The notes under the pieces are model-generated. The model had not been told where the DNA came from, searched no databases, and worked only from the letters and a program-made list of their open reading frames with translations. Both the position numbers and the translations under genes were made by a program. This document shows, one piece after another, positions 9,887 through 64,000 of a DNA stretch of 64,000 nucleotides. The DNA comes from Terrimonas sp. GTDB lineage: Bacteria; Bacteroidota; Bacteroidia; Chitinophagales; Chitinophagaceae. The number at the start of each line of letters is the position of its first letter. Within the stretch, counting starts at the first letter, position 1. The stretch is taken from NCBI GenBank assembly GCA_016125075.1, contig WGMO01000001.1:310001-374000 (forward strand), read 5' to 3'.

Positions 9887-12800
9887 CTAAAACGCTTTCT
9901 GCCCATATAAGCTTAACCCTTCCTTTTTCAATGCTTGCTCCGCCCTGACTTCATAGCGGCCCTCAATTGTTTTATGCTCTGCTTCATAATTCGTCAGTTC
10001 CTTTTTCAACGACTGGATCCTGTCCAGCTGGAGGTTACTGGGAGGTGCTTCCTGAGAACACAGGCTCACATAGACCTCTGAAATATATTCCCGGAGTCTT
10101 TTTACATCGGCAAACAAAGAAGTTTTTTCGGCAGGAATTAGTTTACCCCTCACCTGTTCCAGTTCATTGTAATATTGCTGCAGCAGGGCTTTTGTTTTCC
10201 CGTTCTTCGTTTTTTCCATCCTGTCTTTGAGTATCTTTTCTTTCAGGTCGAGCTGTTCTACAAGGTCAGCAAGCTCTTCATGCATCTTATACAATTCCAT
10301 AGATGACTGGTAATTCAGCTCCCGGTCCTTTAAGGTATAATTATCATCGGTTTCATCCTGTATCATTTTCAGGGTATCGATATACACCTTATCCCCAACC
10401 GTTAGTTTTATCAGGTAGTTACCGGGTAAAACCTGGGGTGCAATAAAGGTCGACTGGTCGAGTTTTTCGGCTTTCGCCACCTTGGGCGGGTTCATCCTTT
10501 GGTTCCAGTACACCTGGTTAAGCCCTTTTCTTTTGGTGGCTGGAAGGGTTTGAATGATTGCTCCCTTCATATCCGTAATGTCAATTTTTACCTGGCCTTT
10601 TGAAACCCGGTCCTTAAAATAATATTGAATGGGGGGGATGGCAGGAGGATTGGGCGCCACCCATCCACCGGTGCTCGGAGCCCCACCGTCGGCAAAATTC
10701 CCCATGGTAAGTTTTACAGGTGCCGGTTTAAAAACAAATACATCTTTTTCGGCGATGGCCCTGGTCATTTCCCGCATTGGAGTGATATCATCAACGATCA
10801 GGATACCCCTGCCATGGGTAGCAATGATCAGGTCATGGGTGCGCGGCTGGATCTGGATATCCCGGACCATGGCATACCAGGGGATATTGTTCTTCATCCT
10901 GAACCAGTCCTTACCCCCGTTGACGGTGGCGAACAAACCCATTTCTGTTCCAAAAAAAAGCAGGTCTTCATTGACACGGTCCTGCCTGATTTTTTGTGCA
11001 TACCCGGTAAATTCATCGCTTTGCATCCATGTCCATGTCTTGCCCATATCTGTAGATTTTCCCAGGTAGGTTTTCATATCACCATACATATGGTTATCAA
11101 AAGTCGCGAATACAACCTGCTTATCGAAGGGGGAAGGTTCGATGCTGCTGACCCAGGTATGCGGTGGAATCCCGGCTTTAGCATAATTATCAGCAACATT
11201 GTTCCAGGTTTTTCCTCCGTTCAGTGTGTATTGAAGGTTGCCATCATCCGTACCTACCCAGATCATATTTTCGTCCAGCGGGGATTCGGCTACCGTGAAA
11301 ATAGTGCAATGATTTTCTGCAGAAGTGTTGTCTGCACTCAGTCCCCCGCTTTCTTCCTGCTGTTGTTTCTTCTTATCATTGGTGGTGAGATCAGGTGAAA
11401 TCCTTGTCCAGTTTCTTCCTTCATCGGTGGACCTGAATAAATATTGCGCTCCCATATAGAGGTTATGTCCATTCGCCGCACCCGTTAGTAAAGGAGTATT
11501 CCAGTTCCATCGCAGTTCTTCCTCTTTGGAGGAGGCCTGTGGCTGTATCTTAACCGAGAGCCCGGTTTTCAGGTTGATCCTGCCCGCATTGCCGCCCTGG
11601 TACTCGGCATAAGCAATATTGGCGTTAAAGGGATCAGGACAGGCCCAGAAACCATCCCCAAAATAAATATCGCGCCAATCGCCGTTATCTACCCCTCCAT
11701 AGGACTGGGAGGGCGCCACCCAACTGCCATTATCCTGTAACCCGCCATAAATGTTATACGGTGTTTTATCATCATATTGAACATGATAGAACTGTCCCAC
11801 CGGCAAATTGCCGAAGAACCGCCAGGTAGCACCTTTATCAAGGCTGCTGTAAACACCACCATCTGTTCCCAGGTACAGTTCGTTGGTATTTTTGGGATTG
11901 ATCCATAACGCATGATGATCGCTGTGCACCCATCCCCCCGCATCACTGGCATCGGCAAATGAATAGCCTCCATCATTGGAATAAGAGAAAGTAAACCCGG
12001 GACGATATACCCTTTTGGGGTCTTTAGGATCAATTTCCAGTGAAGCAAAATAAAATGGCCTGGATACCACATTCATCGTAGCACTTTGCTGTTTCCAGTT
12101 TTCACCTCCATCAGCAGAAATATACAAACCGGTTTCTTTTGATTCTACAATCGCGACCAGGTTATCCGGCGCCGAAGGGGCAAGAGCCAATGCTACCCTG
12201 CCAAAAGGTTTGGGAGGAAGCCCGTTGGATAGCTCTTTCCAGGTCTTTCCGGCATCAGTAGATTTAAAAATGCCGCTACCCGGTCCGCCGGAATTGAATG
12301 AATAGGGCAACCTGCGAAATTCCCATGTGGTCGCATAAATGATATCCGGATTTTTCGGATCGACGGCTACATCTGCACAACCCGCCTTTTCGCTGATGTA
12401 TAATATCTTTTCCCAGGTCTCTCCACCATCCGTTGATTTATACAATCCCCGGTGCTTGCTGTCGCACCAGAGAGGGCCCGGTGCAGCAACATAAATGATA
12501 TTCGTATTGATAGGGTTGATAGCGATTTTGGCGATATGTTCGGTACTGTCCAGCCCCACCAGTTTCCAGTTGTCGCCCCCATCCCTGGTTTTATAGATTC
12601 CGTTGCCCACCGATACTGTATTCCGCATATTGCTTTCACCGGTTCCGGCAAAAACGATTTTTGGATTTTTTGGATCGATGGCCAGGGCACCGATACTCTG
12701 GCAATACTTATCAAAAACCGATTTGAAGGATGCCCCGGAATTTGTCGTTTTCCAGACGCCCCCTCCGGCTGTCCCCACATAAATAGTAGATGGGTCGGAA

Positions 12801-50206: not shown

Positions 50207-50824
50207 ATGAACTGGAAGGAGCATTTTAAATCATTTGAACCTGAATTGGTCGACACGATCGAAAAACAAGCCGTTGAAAAAACATTTAATGCCGGTGAAG
50301 TGATCATCAGGACCGGCCAGTATATTAAATCCACGGTGCTGGTTTTGAGCGGAAGGATCAAGATCTACCGCGAGAATGAAGAAGGGGGTGAATTCCTGAT
50401 GTATTACCTGGGACCGGGCGAAGCCTGTGCCGTGTCCATGATCTGTGCCCTGCAATCACAAACCAGTGAGATCATGGCGATGGCCGAGGAAGAAACGGAT
50501 GTGCTGATGATCCCCATCCAATTGATGGACGACCTGATGAACAAGTATAAGAGTTGGTACCAGTTCGTGATCCAGACCTACCGGGCCCGTTTCGATGAAC
50601 TGCTGACGGTGATTGATAATATCGCCTTCCGGAACATGGATGAAAGACTTGAATTTTATTTAAAACGCCATCAGGACAAGACCGGGAAGAAAATGATCGA
50701 GCTTTCCCACCAGCAAATTGCCGATGACCTGGCCACTTCGCGGGAAGTGGTGTCCCGCCTGCTGAAAAAAATGGAACAAAGAAACATGGTGAAACTGCAT
50801 AGAAATATGGTGGAAATGGTTTAA
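50207..50824 (+). CDS. Crp/Fnr family transcriptional regulator
   Basis: cNMP-fold N-terminus; HTH ELSHQQIADDLATSREVVSRLLKKMEQ; two Cys only (C74, C80). Confidence 0.92.
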   Translation: MNWKEHFKSFEPELVDTIEKQAVEKTFNAGEVIIRTGQYIKSTVLVLSGRIKIYRENEEGGEFLMYYLGPGEACAVSMICALQSQTSEIMAMAEEETDVLMIPIQLMDDLMNKYKSWYQFVIQTYRARFDELLTVIDNIAFRNMDERLEFYLKRHQDKTGKKMIELSHQQIADDLATSREVVSRLLKKMEQRNMVKLHRNMVEMV

Positions 50825-50835
50825 GCGGCCCTCAT

Positions 50836-50849
50836 GTGATATCTATCAC
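50836..50849 (+). promoter_or_regulatory. Crp/Fnr-type operator A (GTGAT-ATCT-ATCAC)
   Basis: Perfect arms; centre 29.5 nt before CATTTTTG (50872-50879); upstream of TauE gene. Confidence 0.75.
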
Positions 50850-50891
50850 TCAATAACCGGCGTATTCTGGACATTTTTGCAAAAAATATTT

Positions 50892-51689
50892 ATGGAAATA
50901 CTTGGATACATAGCGTCGGTAATTATCGGTATATCGCTCGGATTAATCGGTGGCGGCGGTTCTATTTTAACCGTGCCAGTTTTGGTTTATCTTTTTGGCA
51001 TCAATCCCGTCCTGGCCACGGCCTATTCCCTTTTTATAGTGGGTTCTACCAGTCTTGTTGGGGCCATTCCAAAATACAGGCATGGGCTTGTTAACCTGAA
51101 AACAGCATTTATTTTCGGCCTCCCGGCCATTGCGGCGGTATTTGCCACAAGAAACTGGATCATCCCGGCCATTCCGAAAGAAGTGTTCACAGTAGGCGAT
51201 TTTGTTGTCACCAAGGGGATACTCATGATGATCCTGTTTGCCGTGCTGATGGTCTTTGCTTCCATATCTATGATCCGGGATAAAAAGAAACCGGAGGAAA
51301 ACACAAATGGTGAACAGAAATTTAATTACCCGCTGATCCTGTTAGAAGGGGTGGTTGTGGGCCTGTTGACAGGACTGGTCGGCGCCGGTGGTGGCTTCTT
51401 AATCATCCCCGCATTGGTGCTGCTGAGTAAACTGCCCATGAAACAGGCTGTCGGCACTTCCTTATTGATCATCGCCGCCAAATCACTGATCGGATTTACC
51501 GGAGACCTATCGCATTTTGAAATGGACTGGAAACTGCTTTTAATCGTGACAGGGTTGGCCATTGCAGGGATCTTTGTAGGCAACTGGATGAGCCACAAAG
51601 TTTCTGGCGATAAGTTAAAAAAAGGATTCGGATGGTTTGTGCTGGTGATGGGGATATATATTATTGTTAAAGAACTTTTTTTGAAATAA
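50892..51689 (+). CDS. TauE/SafE family sulfite/organosulfonate exporter-like permease
   Basis: ISLGLIGGGGSILTVPVLVYLFGINPVLATAYSLFIVG, GLLTGLVGAGGGFLIIPALVLL. Confidence 0.9.
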   Translation: MEILGYIASVIIGISLGLIGGGGSILTVPVLVYLFGINPVLATAYSLFIVGSTSLVGAIPKYRHGLVNLKTAFIFGLPAIAAVFATRNWIIPAIPKEVFTVGDFVVTKGILMMILFAVLMVFASISMIRDKKKPEENTNGEQKFNYPLILLEGVVVGLLTGLVGAGGGFLIIPALVLLSKLPMKQAVGTSLLIIAAKSLIGFTGDLSHFEMDWKLLLIVTGLAIAGIFVGNWMSHKVSGDKLKKGFGWFVLVMGIYIIVKELFLK

Positions 51690-51704
51690 AATGTATACCA
51701 ATCG

Positions 51705-51718
51705 GTGACATTTGTCAT
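51705..51718 (+). promoter_or_regulatory. Crp/Fnr-type operator B (GTGAC-ATTT-GTCAT)
   Basis: Centre 29.5 nt before GATTTTTG (51741-51748); upstream of MBL-rhodanese gene. Confidence 0.75.
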
Positions 51719-51774
51719 AGTCAGGATATGGTGTTTGCATGATTTTTGCCTCACAAAAAAAGAAAAAAATAATT

Positions 51775-53190
51775 ATGAAGATTGAACAAATTTATACCGG
51801 TTGCCTGGCCCAGGGGGCTTACTACATTGAAAGTAATGGTGAAGCTGTTGTGATTGACCCCCTGCGCGAAGTGGGTCCGTATTTATTAAAAGCCGAAAGA
51901 AACAATGCTAAGATCAAATACGTATTTGAAACCCATTTTCACGCCGACTTTGTTTCCGGGCACCTTGACCTGTCAAAAAAATCAGGCGCACCGATCGTAT
52001 ATGGTCCTACAGCCAATCCCGGGTTTGACACCATCATCGCAAAAGACGGGGAAGAGTTCAAAGTGGGAAAGGTGACCTTTAAAGTATTGCATACACCCGG
52101 TCATACGATGGAATCGACCTGTTACCTGTTGAAAGACGAGAACGGGAAAGACGTTGCCCTCTTCAGCGGCGATACCTTATTCATCGGAGATGTAGGCCGC
52201 CCCGACCTTGCGCAGAAAGCTGCTGACATGACCCAGGAAGAACTGGCGGGCACGTTGTTTGATTCACTGAGAAATAAGATCATGCCCCTGTCCGATGATA
52301 TCATCGTATACCCGGCCCATGGTGCGGGCAGTGCCTGTGGTAAAAACATGAGCAAGGAAACCTCTGATACACTGGGACACCAGAAAGCCACCAATTATGC
52401 TTTACGGGCCAATATGACACGCGAAGAATTTATCAAAGAGGTCACCAACGGACTGATGCCGCCTCCTGCCTATTTCCCTCTCAACGTCATGTTGAACAAA
52501 CAAGGTTATGAAAGCCTGGATATCGTAATGGAAAGGGGCATGAAAGGGATGTCGCCTGAGGCATTCGAAACCGCTGCCAATGAAACTGGCGCGGTAGTGC
52601 TTGACACCCGTGAGCCATTGGCCTTTGCAAAAGCCTTTGTTCCCAACTCTATCAATATTGGTATCGACGGACAGTTTGCCCCCTGGGTGGGTGCCCTGAT
52701 ACCGGATATCAAGCAGGAGATATTACTGGTTTGTGAACCCGGACGGGAAGAAGAAGTGGTGACCCGTTTAAGCCGTGTAGGCTATGACAACACCATTGGT
52801 TTCCTGGATGGGGGAATGGATAACTGGAAAAAAGCAGGAAAAGAAGTGGACAGTATCCCCACGATCAGTGCGGATCAGTTTGCAGAAATCAATGCTTCAA
52901 AAGAACTGCATATCCTCGACGTGCGTAAAAAAAGTGAATATTTCAGCGAGCATGTTCTGAATGCTGAAAACACCCCGCTTGATTTTATCAATGAAAGCAT
53001 GTTGCATATCGATAAGAATAAAAAATATTATATCCATTGTGCCGGCGGATACAGGAGCATGATTTTCGCATCTATCCTGAAAGCAAGGGGATATGATAAC
53101 CTGGTCGATATCAAAGGCGGGTTCAAGGCGATCAAAGAAACCAACAAGGTGAAAGTGTCTGATTATGTTTGCCCTTCAACAATGCTCTGA
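51775..53190 (+). CDS. MBL-fold persulfide-dioxygenase-like protein fused to two rhodanese domains
   Basis: THFHADFVSGHLDL, HTPGHTMEST, SGDTLFIGDVGRPDL; rhodanese loops CEPGREEE and CAGGYRSM. Confidence 0.9.
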   Translation: MKIEQIYTGCLAQGAYYIESNGEAVVIDPLREVGPYLLKAERNNAKIKYVFETHFHADFVSGHLDLSKKSGAPIVYGPTANPGFDTIIAKDGEEFKVGKVTFKVLHTPGHTMESTCYLLKDENGKDVALFSGDTLFIGDVGRPDLAQKAADMTQEELAGTLFDSLRNKIMPLSDDIIVYPAHGAGSACGKNMSKETSDTLGHQKATNYALRANMTREEFIKEVTNGLMPPPAYFPLNVMLNKQGYESLDIVMERGMKGMSPEAFETAANETGAVVLDTREPLAFAKAFVPNSINIGIDGQFAPWVGALIPDIKQEILLVCEPGREEEVVTRLSRVGYDNTIGFLDGGMDNWKKAGKEVDSIPTISADQFAEINASKELHILDVRKKSEYFSEHVLNAENTPLDFINESMLHIDKNKKYYIHCAGGYRSMIFASILKARGYDNLVDIKGGFKAIKETNKVKVSDYVCPSTML

Positions 53191-53218
53191 TTGATTTGTT
53201 ATACTTAAAACAATCGTT

Positions 53219-53695
53219 ATGGAAAAAACAAATAGAATCGGATTAGATGTAAAAAAAAGTAGTGAACTCGCAAAAAGCCTGAATGATCTACTGGCCAACT
53301 ATTCGGTGTTTTACCAGAATACAAGGGGCTATCACTGGAATATCAAGGGCGATAAGTTTTTTGAACTGCATATTAAGTTCCAGGAATTATACAATAACCT
53401 GCTGGTGAAGATCGATGATGTGGCAGAAAGGATACTCACGCTCGGGCATACCCCGGAACACAAGTATACCCATTATGTACAGGTTGCTGCGATCCCGGAA
53501 AGCAAGCAGGTATCGGACGGGGTGAAAGCGGTTGCAGAAATCCTGGAAGCCTTCAGGGTGCTGATCGCCAAACAAAGGAAAATATTGAGCCTTTCCGCCG
53601 ATATCGAAGACGAAGGGACCAATGCATTGATGAGTGATTATATCCGGGAACAGGAGAAACTGGTGTGGATGTATTCCGCGTATCTCAGTAACTAA
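53219..53695 (+). CDS. Dps family ferritin-like protein
   Basis: LNDLLANYSVFYQNTRGYHWNIKGDKFFELHIKFQELYN, IDDVAERILTLG. Confidence 0.92.
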   Translation: MEKTNRIGLDVKKSSELAKSLNDLLANYSVFYQNTRGYHWNIKGDKFFELHIKFQELYNNLLVKIDDVAERILTLGHTPEHKYTHYVQVAAIPESKQVSDGVKAVAEILEAFRVLIAKQRKILSLSADIEDEGTNALMSDYIREQEKLVWMYSAYLSN

Positions 53696-53717
53696 GAAAA
53701 AAAAATGAAATACTACA

Positions 53718-53748
53718 ATGCCTGTCTGTAATAGGGCAGGTATTTTTT
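53718..53748 (+). terminator. Terminator after dps
   Basis: GCCTGTCT-N-GGGCAGGTATTTTTTT (stem with G-U pairs). Confidence 0.65.
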
Positions 53749-53768
53749 TACGCTAACGGCCTTGTGTC

Positions 53769-55160
53769 ATGAAGATCAAAGAATCCATACTGATGGTAAC
53801 CCTTTTGCTGGTGAGCGGGCAAGGGCTCTTCGCCCAAACGGTTCCCGGTAATGAAAAAGATACCAGTACCCTTAAGGAATTCTTTTCCAGGGGAAAATTC
53901 AGCGCCCAGGTGCGTACCGTTTTCATGAATACAGTCAATAAAGGCGCGCTCCGGGATTACAGTGCGCTGGCTTTTGGCGCAGGACTGGGTTATGAAACCG
54001 CCAGTTTCAAGGGGTTCCAGCTGGGATTCAGCGGGTTCTTTGTCTTTAATATCGCTTCCAATAACCTGTCTGTACCCGATCCCCGTACCAACCAGTTCAG
54101 CCGCTATGAACTCGGCCTGTTTGATCTGACCGACCCGCATAATAAAACAAACCTCGATAGGCTGGAAGAATTATATATCAAATACCGCTACCGGCAAACC
54201 CAACTCACGGTCGGGCGCCAGGTGCTGAAGACCCCCTTCATCAATCCACAGGATGGCCGTATGCGCCCCACCCTGGAAGAAGCCGTCTGGCTGCAAACAA
54301 AAGAAATACCCCATCTTACCATACAGGGCGGCTGGATCAACAGGATATCACCGCGGTCAACGGTTGACTGGTATAATATCGGTAAATCAATCGGTGTCTA
54401 TTCGCCCGGTGTGGATGAATATGGCAAACCTTCCGCCTATGCCAACAATACGCAAAGCCGGGGCATCGCCCTGATGGGAGCAGATTATGCCCGCCAGGAA
54501 ACGAAGCTGATGGCCTGGAATACTTTTGTGGAGAATGTGATGAATACCGTGTTCCTGCAGGCCGAACAGGGATTCGTGTTAAAAAACAAGTCAAAACTCC
54601 TGGCCGGTATCCAAATGATCACACAATATAAAATTAAAGAGGGCGGCAACCCCGATACCGTAAAACAATATTATCCTGCCGGCAACAGGGCTGTTGTGAT
54701 CAGCACACGCATTGGATATACCGCCAATAAATGGCGGCTCAATATCAATTACACCCGGATCACAAAAGATGGCCGGTACCTGATGCCGCGGGAATGGGGC
54801 AATGACCCTTTTTATACCTTTATGCCAAGGGAAAGAAATGAAGGCTATGGTGATGTGCAGGCCATCAATACCAATTTTGTGTACTTACCGAAGAATGAAA
54901 ACTGGGAATTGCGAATGGGCTATGGCCATTTCTACCTGCCGGATACCCGCGACTTCCAGTTCAATAAATACGGTATGCCCGCTTATAACCAGTTAAATTT
55001 GCAGGCGGTCCATCATTTTACCGGATTTTTTAACGGACTGGAATTGAACCTGCTCATCGTCTATAAAGGAAAACTGGGTAAGGATTATGACAATCCCCGG
55101 TATATCGACAATAAAGTGGACCTCATACATTCGACCCTTGTATTCAATTATCATTTCTGA
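53769..55160 (+). CDS. OprD-like outer membrane porin
   Basis: Signal peptide; FSRGKFSAQVRTVFMNTVNKGALRDYSALAFGAGLGYET, LEELYIKYRYRQTQLTVGRQ, terminal FNYHF. Confidence 0.75.
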   Translation: MKIKESILMVTLLLVSGQGLFAQTVPGNEKDTSTLKEFFSRGKFSAQVRTVFMNTVNKGALRDYSALAFGAGLGYETASFKGFQLGFSGFFVFNIASNNLSVPDPRTNQFSRYELGLFDLTDPHNKTNLDRLEELYIKYRYRQTQLTVGRQVLKTPFINPQDGRMRPTLEEAVWLQTKEIPHLTIQGGWINRISPRSTVDWYNIGKSIGVYSPGVDEYGKPSAYANNTQSRGIALMGADYARQETKLMAWNTFVENVMNTVFLQAEQGFVLKNKSKLLAGIQMITQYKIKEGGNPDTVKQYYPAGNRAVVISTRIGYTANKWRLNINYTRITKDGRYLMPREWGNDPFYTFMPRERNEGYGDVQAINTNFVYLPKNENWELRMGYGHFYLPDTRDFQFNKYGMPAYNQLNLQAVHHFTGFFNGLELNLLIVYKGKLGKDYDNPRYIDNKVDLIHSTLVFNYHF

Positions 55161-55164
55161 CCCT

Positions 55165-55178
55165 GTGACCTTTATCAC
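55165..55178 (+). promoter_or_regulatory. Crp/Fnr-type operator C (GTGAC-CTTT-ATCAC)
   Basis: Centre 29.5 nt before CATATTTG (55201-55208); upstream of yeeE-yeeE-cyt-soxB. Confidence 0.75.
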
Positions 55179-55234
55179 TGATCAGGTACTGATGAAAAAT
55201 CATATTTGTAAACACTAAAATAAAAATCTCCTTT

Positions 55235-55804
55235 ATGAGCTTTCTGGATTGGATACGTCAACCCTGGCCCTGGTATGTTGCCGGCCCCCTGATCGGGCTC
55301 ACCGTACCGGTATTACTGATCATCGGCAATAAGACCTTCGGGGTTTCTTCCTCCCTGCGGCATATTTGTGCGGCCTGTATACCTGCCAATATTCCTTTTT
55401 TCAAATACGACTGGAAAAAGGAAATATGGAACCTCTTTTTTGTAGCCGGTATTGTTGTAGGTGCCTTCATCGCTTTTAACCTGTTGAATAATCCCGATAC
55501 GGTGCAGGTACATCCCAACCTGGCAAAAGAAATGCAGGGTTACGGTGTCACCGATTACAGGGGTCTTGTACCCTCCGAACTTTTCAACTGGTCGTCCCTG
55601 TTTACGGTGAAAGGATTTATCCTGATGGTAGTCGGCGGTTTACTGGTGGGCTTTGGCACCCGTTATGCCGGTGGCTGTACCAGCGGGCATGCCATCATGG
55701 GTTTATCCAGCTTACAGTTCCCCTCGCTGGTGGCCACGCTCAGCTTTATGGCAGGTGGTTTTATTGTCGCCAATCTCATCTTACCCATCATCTTAAAACT
55801 CTGA
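55235..55804 (+). CDS. YeeE/YedE family protein, half 1 (sulfur transport)
   Basis: [28 protein letters not shown] signature. Confidence 0.88.
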
Positions 55805-55813
55805 TCATCGAAT

Positions 55814-56350
55814 ATGGAAAATAAAATCATACCCGAAACAGAACAGCAGCACCATGCCTTTCTTGCGGAGAACACCGATTTCGAAGTGCGCTCCCTGGAT
55901 GCCGTCTGCTTCAATGAATCAGAGCTGAAACACCCCTGGTGGTATAATTTCAAATATGCGATCACCGGCATCCTCTTTGGTGTGATCCTGATCAAGGCGG
56001 AAGTGATCTCCTGGTTCCGTATCCAGGAAATGTTCCGTTTACAAAGTTTTCACATGTTCGGGGTGATCGGGTCGGCCGTGGTGACGGGTATCATCAGTGT
56101 GTGGCTGATCCGGAAATTCAAGGTCAAGACCATCTATGGCGAACCGATTGAAATACCCAAAAAGAAATTCAGCCAGGGACAGATCTATGGAGGACTGATG
56201 TTTGGTTTCGGCTGGGCCTTGACGGGAGCCTGCCCCGGACCGCTTTTTGCACAGATCGGGACCGGCGCCACGGTCATCGTCATTACGCTCTTTAGCGCCA
56301 TAGCCGGCACCTGGCTCTATGGCCGGCTGAGAGAACAACTTCCTCACTAA
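55814..56350 (+). CDS. YeeE/YedE family protein, half 2
   Basis: GLMFGFGWALTGACPGPLFAQIGTGA signature; 9-nt gap after half 1. Confidence 0.88.
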   Translation: MENKIIPETEQQHHAFLAENTDFEVRSLDAVCFNESELKHPWWYNFKYAITGILFGVILIKAEVISWFRIQEMFRLQSFHMFGVIGSAVVTGIISVWLIRKFKVKTIYGEPIEIPKKKFSQGQIYGGLMFGFGWALTGACPGPLFAQIGTGATVIVITLFSAIAGTWLYGRLREQLPH

Positions 56351-56365
56351 GAAAATCATGATGCT

Positions 56366-57352
56366 TTGAAATCGATAAAACCGATATTGTTCCCCCTCCT
56401 GCTGTTCCTGTTCTTTTCCGTCGCTGTTATTTTCCAGCTGACTAAAAAAGGACCGGAATCCCCTCATGCCGACCCGGTAAAGGATACTTCTGCATGGGTA
56501 GGCCCCGGTAAATACCAGGTTCCCTATGAAACGGAAGAAGGGAAACTGATCGGGTATGGCCGGGAACTGATCGCCAATACGGCTGTTTATCTCGGCCCCC
56601 ATGGGTCCGTATTACAGATTTCAAACGGAATGAACTGCCAGAACTGCCATCTCGATGCGGGCACCAAACCCTGGGGGAATAATTACAGCGCGGTGTACTC
56701 CACCTACCCCAAGATCAGGTCGCGGAGCGGGCAGATGGAAGGCATCTATAAAAGGGTGAATGATTGTTTTGAAAGAAGCCTGAATGGTTCGGCCCTTGAT
56801 TCCAACAGCCGTGAAATGCAGGCCATCTATGCCTATATGAAATGGCTGGGACAGGGCATCGCGAAAGGGGAAAAACCCGAAGGGGCCGGCATCATGAACC
56901 TCCCCTACCTGGACCGGGCAGCATCGCCCGACAGCGGGAGCATCGTCTTTGCGGCCAAATGCCAGTCCTGTCACGGCGCGGACGGACAGGGACAACTGAA
57001 CCCCGAAGGTAACGCCTATGTGTACCCGCCACTTTGGGGGCCGCACAGTTATAACAATGGCGCCGGCCTGTTCCGCCTGTCGAGGTTTGCCGGTTATGTG
57101 AAAAACAATATGCCGCTGGGCACCACTTATCACGGGCCCCAGCTCACCAATGCCGAAGCCTGGGATGTGGCTGCCTTTGTGAATTCAAGGCCCCGCCCCG
57201 AGGGCGATATGCGCTATGACTGGCCGGATATCAGTAAAAAGCCCGTTGACCATCCCTTTGGACCTTACGCTGATCAATTCACCGAAGCACAACATAAATA
57301 CGGGCCCTTTCAACCCATTGAAGCTGCCCGAAAAAACAAACAGGGTAAATAA
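56366..57352 (+). CDS. Diheme cytochrome c, thiosulfate dehydrogenase TsdA-like
   Basis: Two CxxCH motifs (CQNCH, CQSCH); YSTYPKIRSRSGQMEGIYKRVNDCFERSLNG; N-terminal TM anchor; TTG start. Confidence 0.8.
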   Translation: MKSIKPILFPLLLFLFFSVAVIFQLTKKGPESPHADPVKDTSAWVGPGKYQVPYETEEGKLIGYGRELIANTAVYLGPHGSVLQISNGMNCQNCHLDAGTKPWGNNYSAVYSTYPKIRSRSGQMEGIYKRVNDCFERSLNGSALDSNSREMQAIYAYMKWLGQGIAKGEKPEGAGIMNLPYLDRAASPDSGSIVFAAKCQSCHGADGQGQLNPEGNAYVYPPLWGPHSYNNGAGLFRLSRFAGYVKNNMPLGTTYHGPQLTNAEAWDVAAFVNSRPRPEGDMRYDWPDISKKPVDHPFGPYADQFTEAQHKYGPFQPIEAARKNKQGK

Positions 57353-57385
57353 GCATCCTGTTGCATTGAAAAAATAATTGCTGCC

Positions 57386-59197
57386 ATGTCAAAAAATCAT
57401 TTGCATCACTGCAGTTGCAGTTCCTGCACGCACCAGCATATCACAAAAGCTGAGAAAGCATTACATCTTGAACTGTCTGAAAACAGCCGCCGCGAATTCC
57501 TGAAAAAAGCGGGAAGCCTGGGTTTGGGACTGGGCATTGGGGGCGGGCTCATCACTCCCGTTGCCGCCGCCGCGCTCCATAACGAAGATGCTTCGTATAA
57601 GGCCCGGCAAATGGCGGGCAACAAGGCTGTTCAGAAAGGCAAGGCGGAAATAATCACCTTACTTCATACCGCCGATATCCATTCCCAACTGGATATCCAT
57701 GATGAATTTTTTATCGAGAACGGCCAACCCGTCTATAAGAAAAGGGGCGGTTTCGGTAACCTGAAAACGATGATCAACCATTACCGGAAAAAAAATCCCG
57801 CCAATACACTGGTGATCGATGGCGGCGATTGTTTCCAGGGCGGCGGACTCGCAGCCTTAACGGAAGGCAAGGCGCTGATCCCCCTCATCAACAATATCGG
57901 GTATGATATTATGCTGCCGGGTAACTGGGAGGTAGTGTATGGAAAGGAAATGATGATGCGCGATATGTTTGGTTATAACGGGGTAAAGGTTTGTGCGAAT
58001 ATGTTTCATGACAGCAGTGATGACATGAACGGCGACCTGATCTTTCCTCCCTATTATATCAAACATATTGCCGGTATAAAAATCGGGTTCATCGGTTTCA
58101 ATGACCCGCTTACCCCCAAACGCCAGTCGCCGGATTACAGCAAGGGCATCCAGTTCACATTTCCCGAAAAAAATGTGGCCAAATATGTGAAGATCCTGAA
58201 GGAATATGAAAAATGCGAAATGGTATTCCTGCTCACGCATATGGGACTGGCCCAGCAGGTCGGTCTTTCCAATATGGAAGCGATCAAAGGTGTTGACTAT
58301 ATCCTGGGGGCCGATACCCATGAACGGGTAAGGCAACCCATTGAAGGGAAATATGCAAAAGTGACCGAGCCGGGTTCCTTTGCCTCCTTTATTGCCAAAC
58401 TCGATATCGTGGTGGAAAATGGAGCGGTGAAAGACCATAGTTACCAGTTGCTGGATGTGGACCCGGAGCAATACAAGGCCGACCCGGAGATGAATGCATT
58501 GCTCGAAAAAACAAGGGCCCCCTATCAGAAAGAACTGGACCGGGTCATCGGAAAAACAAGCGTCCCGCTGGTCAGGTATTATGTGATCGAAACACCCATG
58601 GACAATTTTATCACAGATGCCATCATGTGGAAATTCAAAACAGATATTGCGCTGAGTAATGGTTTTCGGTTTTGCCCCCCACTGGTACCCGATCCCAAAA
58701 CGGGCGAGGCCCCCATCACCATGGATTTTCTTTGGAGCATGCTGCCGGTCGACAGTGAAGCCAAGGCGGGAATCGCCACGGGGCAACAGATCTGGGACTG
58801 GATGGAAAAAGAATTAGAAAATGCCTTTGCCAAAAACCCCGAAGACCGGTTTGGCGGATGGGTGGTTCGGTTCAAGGGTATGGAAGTGAATTTCACTATC
58901 AACAGGGAACCGGGAAAACGGGTCAACTGGATAAAAGTGGCGGGCCTGCCGATACGCATGGATAAGGACTATAGTTTTGTGGCCTGCGAGAGAGAGGGCG
59001 ATCCCGATACCACGCTTTGCCGTATGCCGGGTGTTGATGAACCCAAAAAACTCGGCGCCACCATGCATACAGTGATCCAGGAATACCTCGCCGAATTTTC
59101 TCCCATTGCGCCAAAAATAGAAGGCCGGTGTACGGTAACCGATGCCCCCCAGGACTTATTGACCCAGTTAATGGGAATTGGCTATGAATTCAGGTAA
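57386..59197 (+). CDS. soxB: SoxB-type thiosulfohydrolase (5'-nucleotidase superfamily), Tat signal
   Basis: SRREFLKKAG Tat motif; LLHTADIHSQLDIHDEFF, VIDGGDCFQGGG, GNWEVVYGKEM (Trp where 5'-nucleotidases have His), FRFCPPLVP. Confidence 0.82.
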   Translation: MSKNHLHHCSCSSCTHQHITKAEKALHLELSENSRREFLKKAGSLGLGLGIGGGLITPVAAAALHNEDASYKARQMAGNKAVQKGKAEIITLLHTADIHSQLDIHDEFFIENGQPVYKKRGGFGNLKTMINHYRKKNPANTLVIDGGDCFQGGGLAALTEGKALIPLINNIGYDIMLPGNWEVVYGKEMMMRDMFGYNGVKVCANMFHDSSDDMNGDLIFPPYYIKHIAGIKIGFIGFNDPLTPKRQSPDYSKGIQFTFPEKNVAKYVKILKEYEKCEMVFLLTHMGLAQQVGLSNMEAIKGVDYILGADTHERVRQPIEGKYAKVTEPGSFASFIAKLDIVVENGAVKDHSYQLLDVDPEQYKADPEMNALLEKTRAPYQKELDRVIGKTSVPLVRYYVIETPMDNFITDAIMWKFKTDIALSNGFRFCPPLVPDPKTGEAPITMDFLWSMLPVDSEAKAGIATGQQIWDWMEKELENAFAKNPEDRFGGWVVRFKGMEVNFTINREPGKRVNWIKVAGLPIRMDKDYSFVACEREGDPDTTLCRMPGVDEPKKLGATMHTVIQEYLAEFSPIAPKIEGRCTVTDAPQDLLTQLMGIGYEFR

Positions 59198-59216
59198 GCT
59201 AAATGCTATCGAAATA

Positions 59217-59813
59217 TCATAAATGCTGGCCCAGTAACCTTAACACTGAAGCTTCGCCCTGGTGATAACTGCCTTCCTGCAGGTACAGGTTTTTCTGCTG
59301 GCAGTTCAGGATATGGAGAAAGGGAAAATCGCTGCAGAGACCGGGAGCATCATAGAGTAAGGCAGCATCCCGGGGGCCACCGCTTTCCAGTTTTATCTGT
59401 TCTTTTGCAAATGCCTCCAGCACGAGGAAGCCTCCTGTTTTTAATGATTGGTAAATTTCCTGGTGGAATTTTTTCCGGGCTGCTTCGGGGAGATGCACAT
59501 AGATCAGCCCGATGGCATCATATTTTTTAGTGGCCCTGAAATCGGCCATATCCATGACCGAATAATGAATGGACAGATTTTCCTTTGCTGCAAAGGCCAG
59601 TGCTTTTTTCCTGGCCACCTCACTAAAATCAAAAGCGTCGACCGCCCACCCTTTTTTGGCGGCGTATATGGCATTCCGGCCCTCGCCTTCGGCGGGCAAC
59701 AAGAGTGTACCCGGCCGGTGCGTATCAATAAACTGTTTGAAAAAATCATTGGGCTGCAGACCGTAAACCGGTTCGCTTTCTGCATACCGCTGGTCCCAGA
59801 ATTGTTTTATCAT
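59217..59813 (-). CDS. Class I SAM-dependent methyltransferase
   Basis: FWDQRYAESEPVYGLQPNDFF, LLPAEGEGRNAIYAAKKGWAVDAFDFS. Confidence 0.85.
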   Translation of the reverse strand: MIKQFWDQRYAESEPVYGLQPNDFFKQFIDTHRPGTLLLPAEGEGRNAIYAAKKGWAVDAFDFSEVARKKALAFAAKENLSIHYSVMDMADFRATKKYDAIGLIYVHLPEAARKKFHQEIYQSLKTGGFLVLEAFAKEQIKLESGGPRDAALLYDAPGLCSDFPFLHILNCQQKNLYLQEGSYHQGEASVLRLLGQHL

Positions 59814-59828
59814 ATGCGTCTGAGCAAA

Positions 59829-60206
59829 TTATTCAGCTGCTTTTGCAGTTGCTACCAGTAATCGTTCTTCGATCACCTGCTTAAATACCTTTTTGGGAAG
59901 GGCCCCCGGTTGCATCATCGGCTGGCCGTTTACAGGGATAAAAAGGAAGGTAGGGATGCTCTGGATACCAAATACCGCCGACAGCTCCATCTCTTTTTCC
60001 GTATCCACTTTATAGATCACCAGTTCGTTGGCATATTCCTTACCCAGTTCCTCCAGGACGGGCGCCACCATCTTGCAGGGACCGCACCAGTCAGCGTAGA
60101 AATCAATAATCACCGGGAGCGACCCTTTGAATTTCCACTCTTTCTCCTTGTCATAGTCAAACACTTTTTCCTTAAAGTCCTGCGTCGTAAGTTGTATTGT
60201 AGCCAT
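59829..60206 (-). CDS. Thioredoxin
   Basis: VIIDFYADWCGPCKMVAPVLEELGKEY. Confidence 0.93.
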   Translation of the reverse strand: MATIQLTTQDFKEKVFDYDKEKEWKFKGSLPVIIDFYADWCGPCKMVAPVLEELGKEYANELVIYKVDTEKEMELSAVFGIQSIPTFLFIPVNGQPMMQPGALPKKVFKQVIEERLLVATAKAAE

Positions 60207-60253
60207 ATTGTAAAGTTAAAGGGCAAAAGTAAAAAATAGTGGTTTTTCCCGGA

Positions 60254-60267
60254 GTGATATATATCAC
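60254..60267 (-). promoter_or_regulatory. Crp/Fnr-type operator D (GTGAT-ATAT-ATCAC)
   Basis: Perfect palindrome; centre 29.5 nt before minus-strand TACTTTTG (60231-60224); upstream of thioredoxin gene. Confidence 0.8.
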
Positions 60268-60277
60268 TATCCCGGGT

Positions 60278-60308
60278 AAAAAAAACCGGCCCCAGGGGGC
60301 CGGCCCAA
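60278..60308 (-). terminator. Terminator of MBL-rhodanese paralog
   Basis: GGGCCGGCCCCCTGGGGCCGGTTTTTTTTACC on minus strand. Confidence 0.8.
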
Positions 60309-60327
60309 AAAGAAAAACAACAATCAA

Positions 60328-61749
60328 CTATAATTCCGTATTCTGTTTTTTAAACTGTGTGCGTTCCAGCGGGGTAGCGCTCAGGGCCTTGTAGCCGCCT
60401 TTGATATTGACCAGGTTGTGAAAACCCCTCGCCTTGAGAATGGAACCGGCAATAACCGACCGGTAACCACCGGCACAATGCAGGTAGTATTTTTTTTGCG
60501 GATCGATCATCGCCATGTTCTGGTTAATGAAATCGAGCGGGAAGTTCTCCGCCCCTGCAATATGTTCCGTATCGTATTCGCTCCTGCGGCGGACATCAAG
60601 CAGGTTGATCATTTTTTTCTCCTGCTGATATTTCTCTGCAAAATCTTCTGCTGAAATTTCAACGATGATATCGGTTGGTTCTCCGGCTTCTTTCCAGGCC
60701 GCCATCCCGCCTTTCAGGTAGCCCTGGGTGTTATCATACCCCACCCTTGACAGGCGGATGATCGCTTCTTCTTCTTTTCCTTCCTCGGTGATGAGTAAGA
60801 TGGGTTGTTGCAGGTCAGTGATGAGGGTGCCCACCCAGGGTGCAAACATATCATCCAGGCCAATAAAAATGGAGCCCGGGATATGGCATTTGGTGAAGGC
60901 ATCCTTGTTGCGGGTGTCGAGTACGAGGGCATCCATGCTTTCCCACACCGCCTGGAATGCTTTGACCGTGAGCGGCCTGTTTCCTTTACCGATCACTTTA
61001 TCGATACTTTCATATCCTTTAATATTCATCAGTACATTTTGCGGAAAATATTGGGGAGGTTCTACCAGTCCTTCGGTAACCGCCTTGATAAACTCTTGTT
61101 TTTTCATATCGGCACGGAGTGCATAATTGGTGGCTTTCTGGTGACCAAGCGTATCGACCGTTTCTTTACTCATGCTTTTGCCACAGGCACTACCCGCCCC
61201 ATGCCCGGGGTAAACAATCACCTCATCGGCGAGGGGCATTATTTTATTCCGCAGGGAATCGTATAAATATCCGGCCAGTATTTCGGGGGTAATCTCGGCT
61301 TTCACTTTCTGCACCAGGTCTGGGCGGCCAACGTCGCCGATAAATAAGGTATCGCCGGTGAAGATGGCATGGTCTTTCCCGTTTTCATCAACCAATAAGT
61401 AAGTCGTTGATTCCATGGTATGGCCCGGGGTATGCAGTACTTTAATATAAACATCGCCCAGTTTCAGCACTTCCCCGTCTTTGGCAATATGGGCTTCATA
61501 GGCCGGGGCGGCCGTAGGTCCGAATACAATGGTACCGCCGGATTTCTGTGCAAGGTCAATATGGCCGGAAACAAAATCTGCATGAAAATGGGTTTCTAAT
61601 ATATACCTGATCTTAGCGCCATTCCTTTCGGCTTTATCGAGGTAAGGTTTGGGGTCGCGAAGGGGGTCGATCACGGCAGCTTCGCCGTTACTTTCAATAT
61701 AGTAGGCAGCTTCTGCCAGGCAGCCGGTATAGATTTGTTCAACCTTCAT
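60328..61749 (-). CDS. MBL-fold persulfide-dioxygenase-like protein with two rhodanese domains, paralog
   Basis: THFHADFVSGHIDL, TGDTLFIGDVGRPDL; second rhodanese HCAGGYRSV; first loop TEEGKEEE lacks Cys. Confidence 0.9.
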   Translation of the reverse strand: MKVEQIYTGCLAEAAYYIESNGEAAVIDPLRDPKPYLDKAERNGAKIRYILETHFHADFVSGHIDLAQKSGGTIVFGPTAAPAYEAHIAKDGEVLKLGDVYIKVLHTPGHTMESTTYLLVDENGKDHAIFTGDTLFIGDVGRPDLVQKVKAEITPEILAGYLYDSLRNKIMPLADEVIVYPGHGAGSACGKSMSKETVDTLGHQKATNYALRADMKKQEFIKAVTEGLVEPPQYFPQNVLMNIKGYESIDKVIGKGNRPLTVKAFQAVWESMDALVLDTRNKDAFTKCHIPGSIFIGLDDMFAPWVGTLITDLQQPILLITEEGKEEEAIIRLSRVGYDNTQGYLKGGMAAWKEAGEPTDIIVEISAEDFAEKYQQEKKMINLLDVRRRSEYDTEHIAGAENFPLDFINQNMAMIDPQKKYYLHCAGGYRSVIAGSILKARGFHNLVNIKGGYKALSATPLERTQFKKQNTEL

Positions 61750-61828
61750 ATGCGTTTGCTTTTAAGTTTTTGAATAAAAGGGATCTCCCGATTGCATTCA
61801 AATTTCCAGTATCCCTCCCGCTGCTTTT

Positions 61829-61842
61829 GTGCCTGGAGTTAC
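61829..61842 (-). promoter_or_regulatory. Degenerate Crp/Fnr-type operator G (minus: GTAAC-TCCA-GGCAC)
   Basis: One mismatch per arm to GTGAY-N4-RTCAC; centre exactly 29.5 nt before minus-strand GAAATTTG (61806-61799). Confidence 0.5.
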
Positions 61843-61908
61843 AAAAACACATGATCTTAATCAGGTTCCGGGTGTTGTTCCCTGGTTTTATTGTATAAAA
61901 TGGGAGCA

Positions 61909-61945
61909 TAAAAAAGGGTGGGCGACGGTCGCCCACCCTTTTTTA
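61909..61945 (-). terminator. Terminator of the Tat/DsrE-like gene
   Basis: AAAAAAGGGTGGGCGA-CGG-TCGCCCACCCTTTTTT. Confidence 0.85.
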
Positions 61946-61958
61946 TTGAACAGTTCAT

Positions 61959-62675
61959 TTAGCCTGCATAGATATAGGCACATTTCTTTTCCTGTGCACG
62001 GCCCAGTGCCCATACACCGGAGGGTACCGCCTGGATACCGGGCAATATACCATCCACCCATTCTTTTTTCACTTCGGCGGCCGACTTGCCGGCACCGCTG
62101 GCCAGGGCTGCGCTGTACACGGTCATGGCCGCATCGCAAACACAGAACATAACCCCGCTTGCCTGGAGCTCATTGATACCGATACTGACCGTGCCAAAAC
62201 CGGGGATCTTGAAAGCCCCTTCTTTGGGTTTCCAGAACGGGTTGCGCAGCGAAGGTTTACCGGTTTCAGGGTCGTCGGCCTTGAAGACCTCTCCAAACTT
62301 ATATTTCGCCCACAAACTGTCTTCCATGGCATATGGAATGGCATCATGCCTTAATACCACCACCACACCGCAATCTTTTTCCGTACTGCCTGTGGCCATA
62401 TTGGTCAGTAAGAAAACACGGGGCCAGGCAAAAGGCATTATTTCGTGTGGACGGGGAGCATCAAATACCACCCTGTGTTTACCACTCACTTTATTGAACC
62501 ACTCATCGGGGTCCATATTGGTATTGCTTTCAAAATTGGGTAAGGGAATATCCCCTGCTTTCAGGCTGAGGGGAGAAGCGATGGTGGAGAGGCCCAATAC
62601 GGCTGCACCGGTGGCCAATGATCCCAGGAAACCCCTGCGACCATTATCTTTTTCGTTTTTACCAGGAGTTGTCAT
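61959..62675 (-). CDS. Tat-exported DsrE-like protein
   Basis: NGRRGFLGSLATGAAVLG signal; VVVVLRHDAIPYAM...INELQASGVMFCVCDAAM...AVPSGVWALGRAQEKKCAYIYAG aligns by eye with the two DsrE-like proteins to its right. Confidence 0.7.
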   Translation of the reverse strand: MTTPGKNEKDNGRRGFLGSLATGAAVLGLSTIASPLSLKAGDIPLPNFESNTNMDPDEWFNKVSGKHRVVFDAPRPHEIMPFAWPRVFLLTNMATGSTEKDCGVVVVLRHDAIPYAMEDSLWAKYKFGEVFKADDPETGKPSLRNPFWKPKEGAFKIPGFGTVSIGINELQASGVMFCVCDAAMTVYSAALASGAGKSAAEVKKEWVDGILPGIQAVPSGVWALGRAQEKKCAYIYAG

Positions 62676-62726
62676 ATACGTTTGTTTTCGTTAAAAAAAT
62701 AAAAGATGAAAAGATTTTGTTGAAAC

Positions 62727-62747
62727 AATAGCTAAAAGTTAGCTATT
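62727..62747. promoter_or_regulatory. Dyad AATAGCTAA-AAG-TTAGCTATT in divergent intergenic region
   Basis: 9-bp perfect inverted repeat between divergent DsrE-like genes. Confidence 0.5.
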
Positions 62748-62801
62748 TTTTATTAAACAAAATTTTTCCGGATTTGCTACCTTACTGTCAAAACCAGCAA
62801 T

Positions 62802-63218
62802 ATGAAATGTAAAATGCTCGTCCTGGCCCTCCTGCTTTTTGCCGGCCCCAGGCTCTTTTCGCAGGCAGTACCCTATAATGTGGTATTTGACCTGACCACG
62901 GATGATACCACTGTACATCAGAGAGTTATACGTTGGATCACCATGATCGAAAAATCAAATCCCGACGCAAAACTGGAAGTGGTTTTTTATGGAAAATCCC
63001 TGGCCATGGCAGAGCAGGAAAAATCGACCGTAGCCGATGCCATCAAAAAACTGTCGGCCAACAAAAATGTGGCTTTCCGGGTTTGTGAGGTTGCCATGAA
63101 AGCCCATAAAGTGGAAAAAAGCCAGCTGATTGCAGGCGTCGGTACCGTTCCCGACGGATTGTACGAGATCATCAGCAAACAGGCCCAGGGCTATGGATAT
63201 ATCAAGGTAGTGCAATAG
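62802..63218 (+). CDS. Secreted DsrE-family-like protein
   Basis: Signal peptide; YNVVFDLTTDD..., LEVVFYGKSLAMA, VAFRVCEVAM. Confidence 0.78.
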   Translation: MKCKMLVLALLLFAGPRLFSQAVPYNVVFDLTTDDTTVHQRVIRWITMIEKSNPDAKLEVVFYGKSLAMAEQEKSTVADAIKKLSANKNVAFRVCEVAMKAHKVEKSQLIAGVGTVPDGLYEIISKQAQGYGYIKVVQ

Positions 63219-63244
63219 GAAAATTTCCACGGTTATGCCTCACG

Positions 63245-63258
63245 GTGATCAAAGTCAC
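63245..63258 (+). promoter_or_regulatory. Crp/Fnr-type operator E (GTGAT-CAAA-GTCAC)
   Basis: Centre 29.5 nt before TAATTCTG (63281-63288, one mismatch to TAnnTTTG). Confidence 0.7.
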
Positions 63259-63362
63259 CGGGTGCATCTGTCAATACCTGTAATTCTGTATTATATTGGT
63301 TGAACAATCTGGCAGGACATCCTCCTGCCAAAAACAGCTATTTACATTTTAAAAACAGATGC

Positions 63363-63773
63363 ATGAAAAAATTATTGATCGTATTCTTTACCCTCTTTAG
63401 CATTTCCGGTTTCGGACAGGTCAAACCCTACAAGATCGTATTTGACCTGGCCAGCAAAGACACGGCTGATTTCAGTGGTGTTTTACGCCAGTTCAATAAT
63501 ATCCTGAAAGTTGCGCCCGATGCGGAACTCGAGGTGGTCTGCCATGGGCCCGCTATCATCATGCTGGTCAAAGACAAGACCCTGGTGGAAGAAAAAATGA
63601 TGGAAGTGAAAAACAGGGCCCATGTTTCCTTTAAGGCCTGTGCCAATTCCATGAAAAGAATGCATATTGACCAGGCCGACCTGGTATCGCTGGCCGAAGT
63701 GGTGCCCGTTGCCATGCTGGAACTGGCCGACCGGCAGATGGAGGGATGGAGTTATATCAGGGCCGGCCAATGA
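63363..63773 (+). CDS. Secreted DsrE-family-like protein, paralog
   Basis: Signal peptide MKKLLIVFFTLFSISGFGQ; YKIVFDLASKD, LEVVCHGPAI, VSFKACANSM. Confidence 0.78.
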   Translation: MKKLLIVFFTLFSISGFGQVKPYKIVFDLASKDTADFSGVLRQFNNILKVAPDAELEVVCHGPAIIMLVKDKTLVEEKMMEVKNRAHVSFKACANSMKRMHIDQADLVSLAEVVPVAMLELADRQMEGWSYIRAGQ

Positions 63774-63814
63774 TTTACAGCTGATCGTCTTTTATAGCTC
63801 CCTTAACGGATCGT

Positions 63815-63828
63815 GTAACATAAATCAC
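63815..63828 (+). promoter_or_regulatory. Crp/Fnr-type operator F (GTAAC-ATAA-ATCAC)
   Basis: One mismatch; centre 29.5 nt before GAAATTTG (63851-63858); upstream of rhodanese gene. Confidence 0.6.
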
Positions 63829-63872
63829 CCAGTTTACGGATTAGCCGGTTGAAATTTGCAGAAAAGAAAAAT

Positions 63873-64000
63873 ATGCAAATCAAAGAGATCGTAAAGAACA
63901 AATTAGGCACCATCATCGATGTGCGGAATGCCGGTGAACTGGTCGAAGGCGTTATCCCCGGTGCCATCAATATCCCTGTTTCCGAAATCCCTTTCCGGGT
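63873..64000 (+). CDS. Rhodanese-like domain protein, truncated by window end
   Basis: MQIKEIVKNKLGTIIDVRNAGELVEGVIPGAINIPVSEIPFRV. Confidence 0.85.
   Translation, partial: MQIKEIVKNKLGTIIDVRNAGELVEGVIPGAINIPVSEIPFR

Follow-up and report, generated by a model that had tools for sequence, protein, structure and literature searches.

Seven phased promoter dyads in a Terrimonas sulfur gene cluster as candidate operators of a neighbouring Crp/Fnr-family regulator

A cluster of sulfur genes in Terrimonas sp. (Bacteroidota; Chitinophagaceae) raises the question of why seven of its promoters carry the same inverted repeat at one fixed distance from the -7 element, and which protein reads it. The cluster occupies about 13 kb of a stretch of 64,000 nucleotides (nt), hereafter the window (assembly GCA_016125075.1, contig WGMO01000001.1, positions 310,001 to 374,000 of the forward strand), in a genome of 3.92 Mb. 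The seven dyads are very likely the operators of a single regulon for the handling of sulfide, persulfide and thiosulfate, placed under class II activation by the Crp/Fnr-family protein encoded at 50207-50824, an estimate that leaves the signal aside. The regulon and the lineage of its regulator are new, and the superfamily and the activation geometry are known ones.

Five of the sites lie on the forward strand. The dyad GTGATatctATCAC (50836-50849) with the -7 box CATTTTTG (50872-50879) precedes tauE, GTGACatttGTCAT (51705-51718) with GATTTTTG (51741-51748) precedes mblA, GTGACctttATCAC (55165-55178) with CATATTTG (55201-55208) precedes yeeE1-yeeE2-cytC-soxB, GTGATcaaaGTCAC (63245-63258) with TAATTCTG (63281-63288) precedes a DsrE-like gene, and GTAACataaATCAC (63815-63828) with GAAATTTG (63851-63858) precedes a rhodanese gene. 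On the reverse strand, GTGATatatATCAC (60254-60267) with TACTTTTG (60231-60224) stands upstream of a thioredoxin gene, and the degenerate dyad GTAACtccaGGCAC (61829-61842) with GAAATTTG (61806-61799) upstream of mblB. The dyads at 51705 and 63815 each depart from the GTGAY-N4-RTCAC consensus at one position and that at 61829 at two, and the distance from box start to dyad centre is 29.5 nt at all seven. Reading of the sequence thereby confirmed both the coordinates and the spacing given in the original prediction.

How specific this arrangement is was examined with a position weight matrix (PWM) trained on 182 sites, all from other genomes. Over the window it places the seven sites at ranks 1 to 7, with scores of 26.0 (tauE), 24.9 (mblA), 26.4 (yeeE operon), 25.0 (thioredoxin), 19.6 (DsrE), 23.6 (rhodanese) and 17.3 (mblB), the next position scoring 13.2. 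The weak site at 61829, seventh in the window, has a score like those of real sites, and four related loci (L084, L086, L137 and L140) likewise carry sites at their mblB orthologues, so that this member of the predicted set also stands. The whole genome was searched for the composite GTGAY-N4-RTCAC-N22-NANNTTTG, with the reversed pattern as control. All three exact matches and three of the five one-mismatch matches fall in the 13-kb stretch, that is, six of eight. The original prediction would have been undone by a similar density of composites upstream of unrelated genes; the opposite was obtained, strong composites being concentrated at the sulfur cluster and enriched over the control.

The regulon extends past the seven promoters. 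Behind the site at 63815, a rhodanese gene, a DUF2892-like gene and a thioredoxin gene continue beyond the end of the window, and an unlinked one-mismatch composite (C13:128870-128913, locus L052, PWM score 20.7) lies upstream of a 70-residue DUF2892-like gene. Genes of this type are preceded by such sites in loci L299 and L388 too. From its sequence, the unlinked site is probably an eighth member.

The same spacing was found in relatives. In 60 loci from about 50 Chitinophagaceae, taken around orthologues of the two genes for metallo-beta-lactamase (MBL)-rhodanese proteins, mblA and mblB, the gene order regulator-tauE-mblA-yeeE1-yeeE2 recurs many times. Among dyads with at most one mismatch, an offset of exactly 29.5 nt accounts for 56 occurrences of NANNTTTG, compared with 3 at 28.5 nt, 4 at 30.5 nt and a mean of 0.49 at other offsets, and reversed and permuted control dyads yield 0 to 1 at 29.5 nt. 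The downstream genes are mainly mblA (41) and tauE (27), followed by a few each of yeeE1, mblB, thioredoxins, rhodanese, cytochrome, soxB and the regulator itself. Dyads of the FNR/DNR type (TTGAY), tried as operator, show no peak at 29.5 nt in these loci, and housekeeping MBL-rhodanese paralogues (52-55% identical), considered as alternative targets, have zero sites in 20 loci.

Furthermore, in 80 loci sampled around relatives of the regulator, 42 boxes are located at 29.5 nt in Flavobacteriales (mean of 0.23 at other offsets), 9 in Sphingobacteriales (with 5 at 30.5 nt) and 11 in Cytophagales (Dyadobacter), and most of the sites stand before tauE or mblA/MBL-rhodanese genes. The operator and spacing rule, together with its association with sulfur genes, is common to four orders of Bacteroidota. 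Across 150 family genomes, the exact composite occurs in 63 and the reversed control in 7. When the first 70 residues of the proteins behind 33 sites in 30 composite-bearing loci were read, without a profile search, about 20 could be recognized as sulfur proteins (TauE, MBL-rhodanese, rhodanese, YeeE, thioredoxin, DUF2892, SQR-like flavoprotein). The regulon and its spacing rule have thus been borne out on material from which they were not drawn, namely the family loci, three further orders and a PWM from other genomes.

These results bear on the simplest rival, namely that the pattern is a product of chance selected by eye. Short degenerate motifs are common, and at three mismatches the composite count in the Terrimonas genome (151/160) is near that of the reversed control (128/151), so that only strong matches are informative and the remaining tests were moved to other genomes. 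The out-of-sample spacing peak already refutes chance and, with the genome-wide enrichment and the PWM ranking, makes its probability negligible.

What the fixed distance means for transcription can be read from start-site mapping in Flavobacterium psychrophilum, where the TAnnTTTG box spans -12 to -5 (PMC9723704). With the box starting at -12, a spacing of 29.5 nt would centre the dyad on -41.5, as at class II Crp-dependent promoters, and the predicted class II geometry agrees with both this published box position and the out-of-sample spacing peak. Across the matrix of 182 sites, the spacer is without a conserved -33 element and just 27% of the -7 boxes begin with T, which makes activation likelier than repression. 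We infer that the protein encoded at 50207-50824 would sit as a dimer on GTGAY-N4-RTCAC, its centre at -41.5, would there substitute for the absent -33 element and would activate RNA polymerase at weak -7 boxes. The converse, a repressor relieved by sulfide in the manner of SqrR/BigR or CstR, is quite improbable: the sulfide sensors SqrR and BigR are indeed repressors (PMC9774590), but a repressor would not need phasing to one nucleotide at -41.5, and the missing -33 element and the weak first box base are marks of activator-dependent promoters.

A different geometry was seen elsewhere in the genome. Three perfect GTGAT-N4-ATCAC dyads lie within 8 kb (G000, C10:146487, 147921 and 154607, about 6488, 7922 and 14608 of locus L049). 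At all three, a -7-like box follows at exactly 51.5 nt, which places the dyad at -63.5, and an additional TCAT half-site occupies the -41.5 register. They are found near genes for YceI, U32 peptidase, MMPL and a DmsB-like ferredoxin, one such site occurs in a genome of the same genus (G022), and they possibly make up a regulon of their own, concerned with respiration and class I-like in geometry. The -63.5 arrangement was rejected as a family-wide rule, since it is found in 8 of 100 genomes versus 2 with the control.

Which protein reads the dyads was left as an inference in the original prediction. The neighbouring gene (50207-50824, forward strand) encodes a candidate activator of 205 residues that matches the Pfam models cNMP_binding, HTH_Crp_2 and Crp, with PF00027 and PF13545 above cut-off, and belongs to the Crp/Fnr superfamily. 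Its AlphaFold (AF2) model is CRP-like, with a mean predicted local distance difference test (pLDDT) score of 88, and its best fold matches are 3dv8, Thermus CAP and CRP. The predicted recognition helix reads R179-E180-V-V-S-R184, that is R-E-x-x-x-R, in keeping with a GTGA half-site; in CRP, Arg180 reads G2 of TGTGA, and Glu181 and Arg185 read the G4:C4 pair (PMC11253593). In a PF13545 search of the genome, this was the only Crp/Fnr protein detected with such a helix, and the other three full members have TATESLIR or SARQTVTT helices.

The helix can be set against the operators in a family sample of 133 distinct regulators. Where the linked regulator has Glu, base 3 of the right half-site is G in 61 of 66 loci; where Val, Ala or Ser replaces Glu, it is G in 1 of 48, and the sites are mostly GTAAC-N4-GTWAC or GTAAC-N4-GTAGC. 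Loss of the Glu accompanies loss of the third-base G of the operator (GTGAC to GTAAC), as the CRP structure predicts, since Glu181 and Arg185 read that G:C pair. A small Glu clade beside one Val group (L278, L279 and L282) has GTCAC in 3/3, and a Glu clade inside the other Val group has it in 3/6. Moreover, the exact composite is present in 45 of 60 genomes with a close orthologue of the regulator and in 18 of 90 others (p 1.7e-11).

Several observations weigh against this account. By parsimony, the helix residue changed about three times, so that few independent events lie behind the covariation. L224, L234 and L237 retain Glu with GTAAC/GTTAC sites, the right half-site is without its G in L259 and L260, and L171 combines Ala with GTGAC sites. 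In addition, some composites in relatives lie upstream of other genes, such as those for TolC-like efflux.

These last sites, together with the fact that GTGA-N6-TCAC is also the core motif of CRP, speak for binding by a different cellular Crp/Fnr protein, responsive to cAMP, oxygen or nitric oxide, the neighbouring gene being incidental. This is nevertheless very improbable: operator sequence changes together with the recognition helix of the regulator linked to it, and the remaining three full Crp/Fnr proteins lack R-E-x-x-x-R, as judged with one Pfam helix-turn-helix model, which a very divergent paralogue could escape. The assignment of the sites to the neighbouring Crp/Fnr protein is well supported by these sequence comparisons, and the covariation lends it support of an independent kind.

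Three further sets of sites were noted around this subject. In several relatives (L310 and L311), TolC-like outer-membrane genes have upstream GTGATATATGTCAC sites paired with TAnTTTTG boxes; these perhaps mark a part of the regulon devoted to efflux, or else answer to another regulator. In locus L106 of genome G023 (11553-11634), GTAAC-type sites occupy the region that separates tauE from a divergently oriented cytochrome bd-like cydAB pair, and respiration resistant to sulfide may be part of the Val-type regulon. Immediately before the start of the window, TTGAT/TTGAC dyads in divergent orientation and with the same 29.5-nt spacing (G000, C22:306960 and C22:307012) lie 4 kb from a gene for a response-regulator-Crp fusion with a TATESLIR helix (C22:303002) and are possibly its own operators.

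The last question is what the regulator senses. Its only cysteines, C74 and C80, are both in the effector pocket, C74 immediately before a short helix in the AlphaFold model. All 132 of 132 relatives keep C74, whereas the position of C80 has Cys in 85 and Gly (43), Ser or Ala in 47, and a C74-C80 switch as a general mechanism was rejected on this ground. The Arg and Ser that bind the phosphate in the cAMP pocket are not kept, the R82-S83 region of CRP corresponding to T86-S87 in an alignment made by eye, and the score with the NCBIfam CRP model (46.9 of 266 bits) is far under the cut-off. The FNR-type set of N-terminal [4Fe-4S] cysteines is not present in the regulator sequence.

The invariance of C74, together with targets such as the CstB-like mblA, TauE, rhodanese and thioredoxin, suggests that persulfide or polysulfide modifies this residue. 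Reactive sulfur species acting on C74, helped by C80 in the subgroup of this regulator, would then be the signal, a proposal that we hold tentatively and at slightly under an even chance. The same regulator and sites could instead answer to oxygen, nitric oxide or a small metabolite, with the sulfur genes belonging to a broader redox programme. O2, nitric oxide or haem is the signal of many Crp/Fnr proteins, GTAAC-type sites in G023 also precede the cytochrome bd-like pair, and the Cys74/Cys80 spacing recurs in the Eubacterium protein 3dv8, which has no known signal; set against this, the targets are overwhelmingly sulfur-handling and the FNR-type cysteine cluster is absent, leaving a non-sulfur signal a serious but doubtful alternative. 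The broadest form of our proposal, in which a widespread Bacteroidota Crp/Fnr activator senses reactive sulfur directly through an invariant Cys in the former cyclic-nucleotide pocket and natural gains or losses of the helix Glu have switched its operator between GTGAC and GTAAC, is one that we put forward as possible, with rather less than even confidence.

The genes behind the sites are consistent with such a function. On the forward strand, tauE (50892-51689) encodes a TauE/SafE family sulfite/sulfur-compound exporter (Pfam TauE, 1.8e-46), and mblA (51775-53190) an MBL-fold protein with two rhodanese stretches by Pfam, a candidate CstB-like persulfide dioxygenase/sulfurtransferase that matches PDB entries 3tp9 (7.7e-73) and 3r2u (1.9e-60), the latter of which we take to be CstB. 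They are followed by yeeE1 and yeeE2 (55235-55804 and 55814-56350), half-length YeeE/YedE (Sulf_transp) transporter genes (PF04143; weak NCBIfam TsuA), by cytC (56366-57352), a c-type cytochrome with a SoxA/TsdA-like domain (PF21342, PF00034), and by a gene for a SoxB-like protein (57386-59197; NCBIfam TIGR04486, 2.4e-76, 257 bits, under the 550 cut-off). The thioredoxin gene (59829-60206; Pfam, 3.3e-24) and mblB (60328-61749), a second MBL-rhodanese gene by Pfam, are on the reverse strand. The forward strand then carries a gene for a DsrE-family protein with an apparent signal peptide (63363-63773; Pfam DsrE, 4e-08) and the 5' part of the gene for a single-domain rhodanese (63874-64000), which ends 154 bases beyond the window (L047:15874-16155; Pfam Rhodanese, 7.1e-13).

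Within the cluster, Dps/ferritin-like and OprD-like porin genes (53219-55160) have no sites of their own. The divergent spacer (62676-62801) between the genes for a TAT-signal-like protein (61959-62675) and a first DsrE protein (62802-63218), both part of the cluster, contains no composite site.

If correct, this reading adds a Crp/Fnr activator to the sulfide and persulfide regulators, in a major phylum in which sulfide control is little described; a limited literature search found no description of a Crp/Fnr sulfur regulon in Bacteroidota. The precise operator rule predicts regulon members from sequence alone and has already led to the unlinked DUF2892-like gene, and the Glu/Val helix switch with its matching operator change would be a natural version of the classic question of CRP specificity. 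With Escherichia coli CRP at class II promoters, the system shares the fold, a dimeric GTGA-N6-TCAC operator, the R-E-x-x-x-R helix and the centre at -41.5, whereas here the cAMP-binding Arg82 is not kept, an invariant Cys74 is in the pocket, the -7 box is the TAnnTTTG of Bacteroidota with no -33 element, and the regulon is a local sulfur regulon. Crp/Fnr proteins of the FNR/DNR/HcpR type share superfamily and activator position, but the present regulator has no N-terminal 4-Cys cluster, and its sites are GTGAY instead of TTGAY and precede sulfur genes, not those of anaerobic respiration; HcpR-type regulators, unlike this one, have hcp as target. The closest PDB entry by sequence (9.1e-21) and by fold search, Eubacterium rectale Crp/Fnr 3dv8, has Cys at the C74 and C80 positions and comes from a different phylum, without known target or signal. 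The reactive-sulfur regulators named in one review, ArsR-type SqrR/BigR and the sigma54 activator FisR, fall into the ArsR and Fis families (PMC9774590). A further such regulator, CstR, is of the CsoR family. All of these regulate genes for persulfide dioxygenase, rhodanese and TauE-type proteins, as the present regulator would, and share with it the Cys-based sensing that we propose here, but they are of unrelated protein families, and SqrR and BigR act as repressors (PMC9774590), where the Terrimonas protein would act as an activator.

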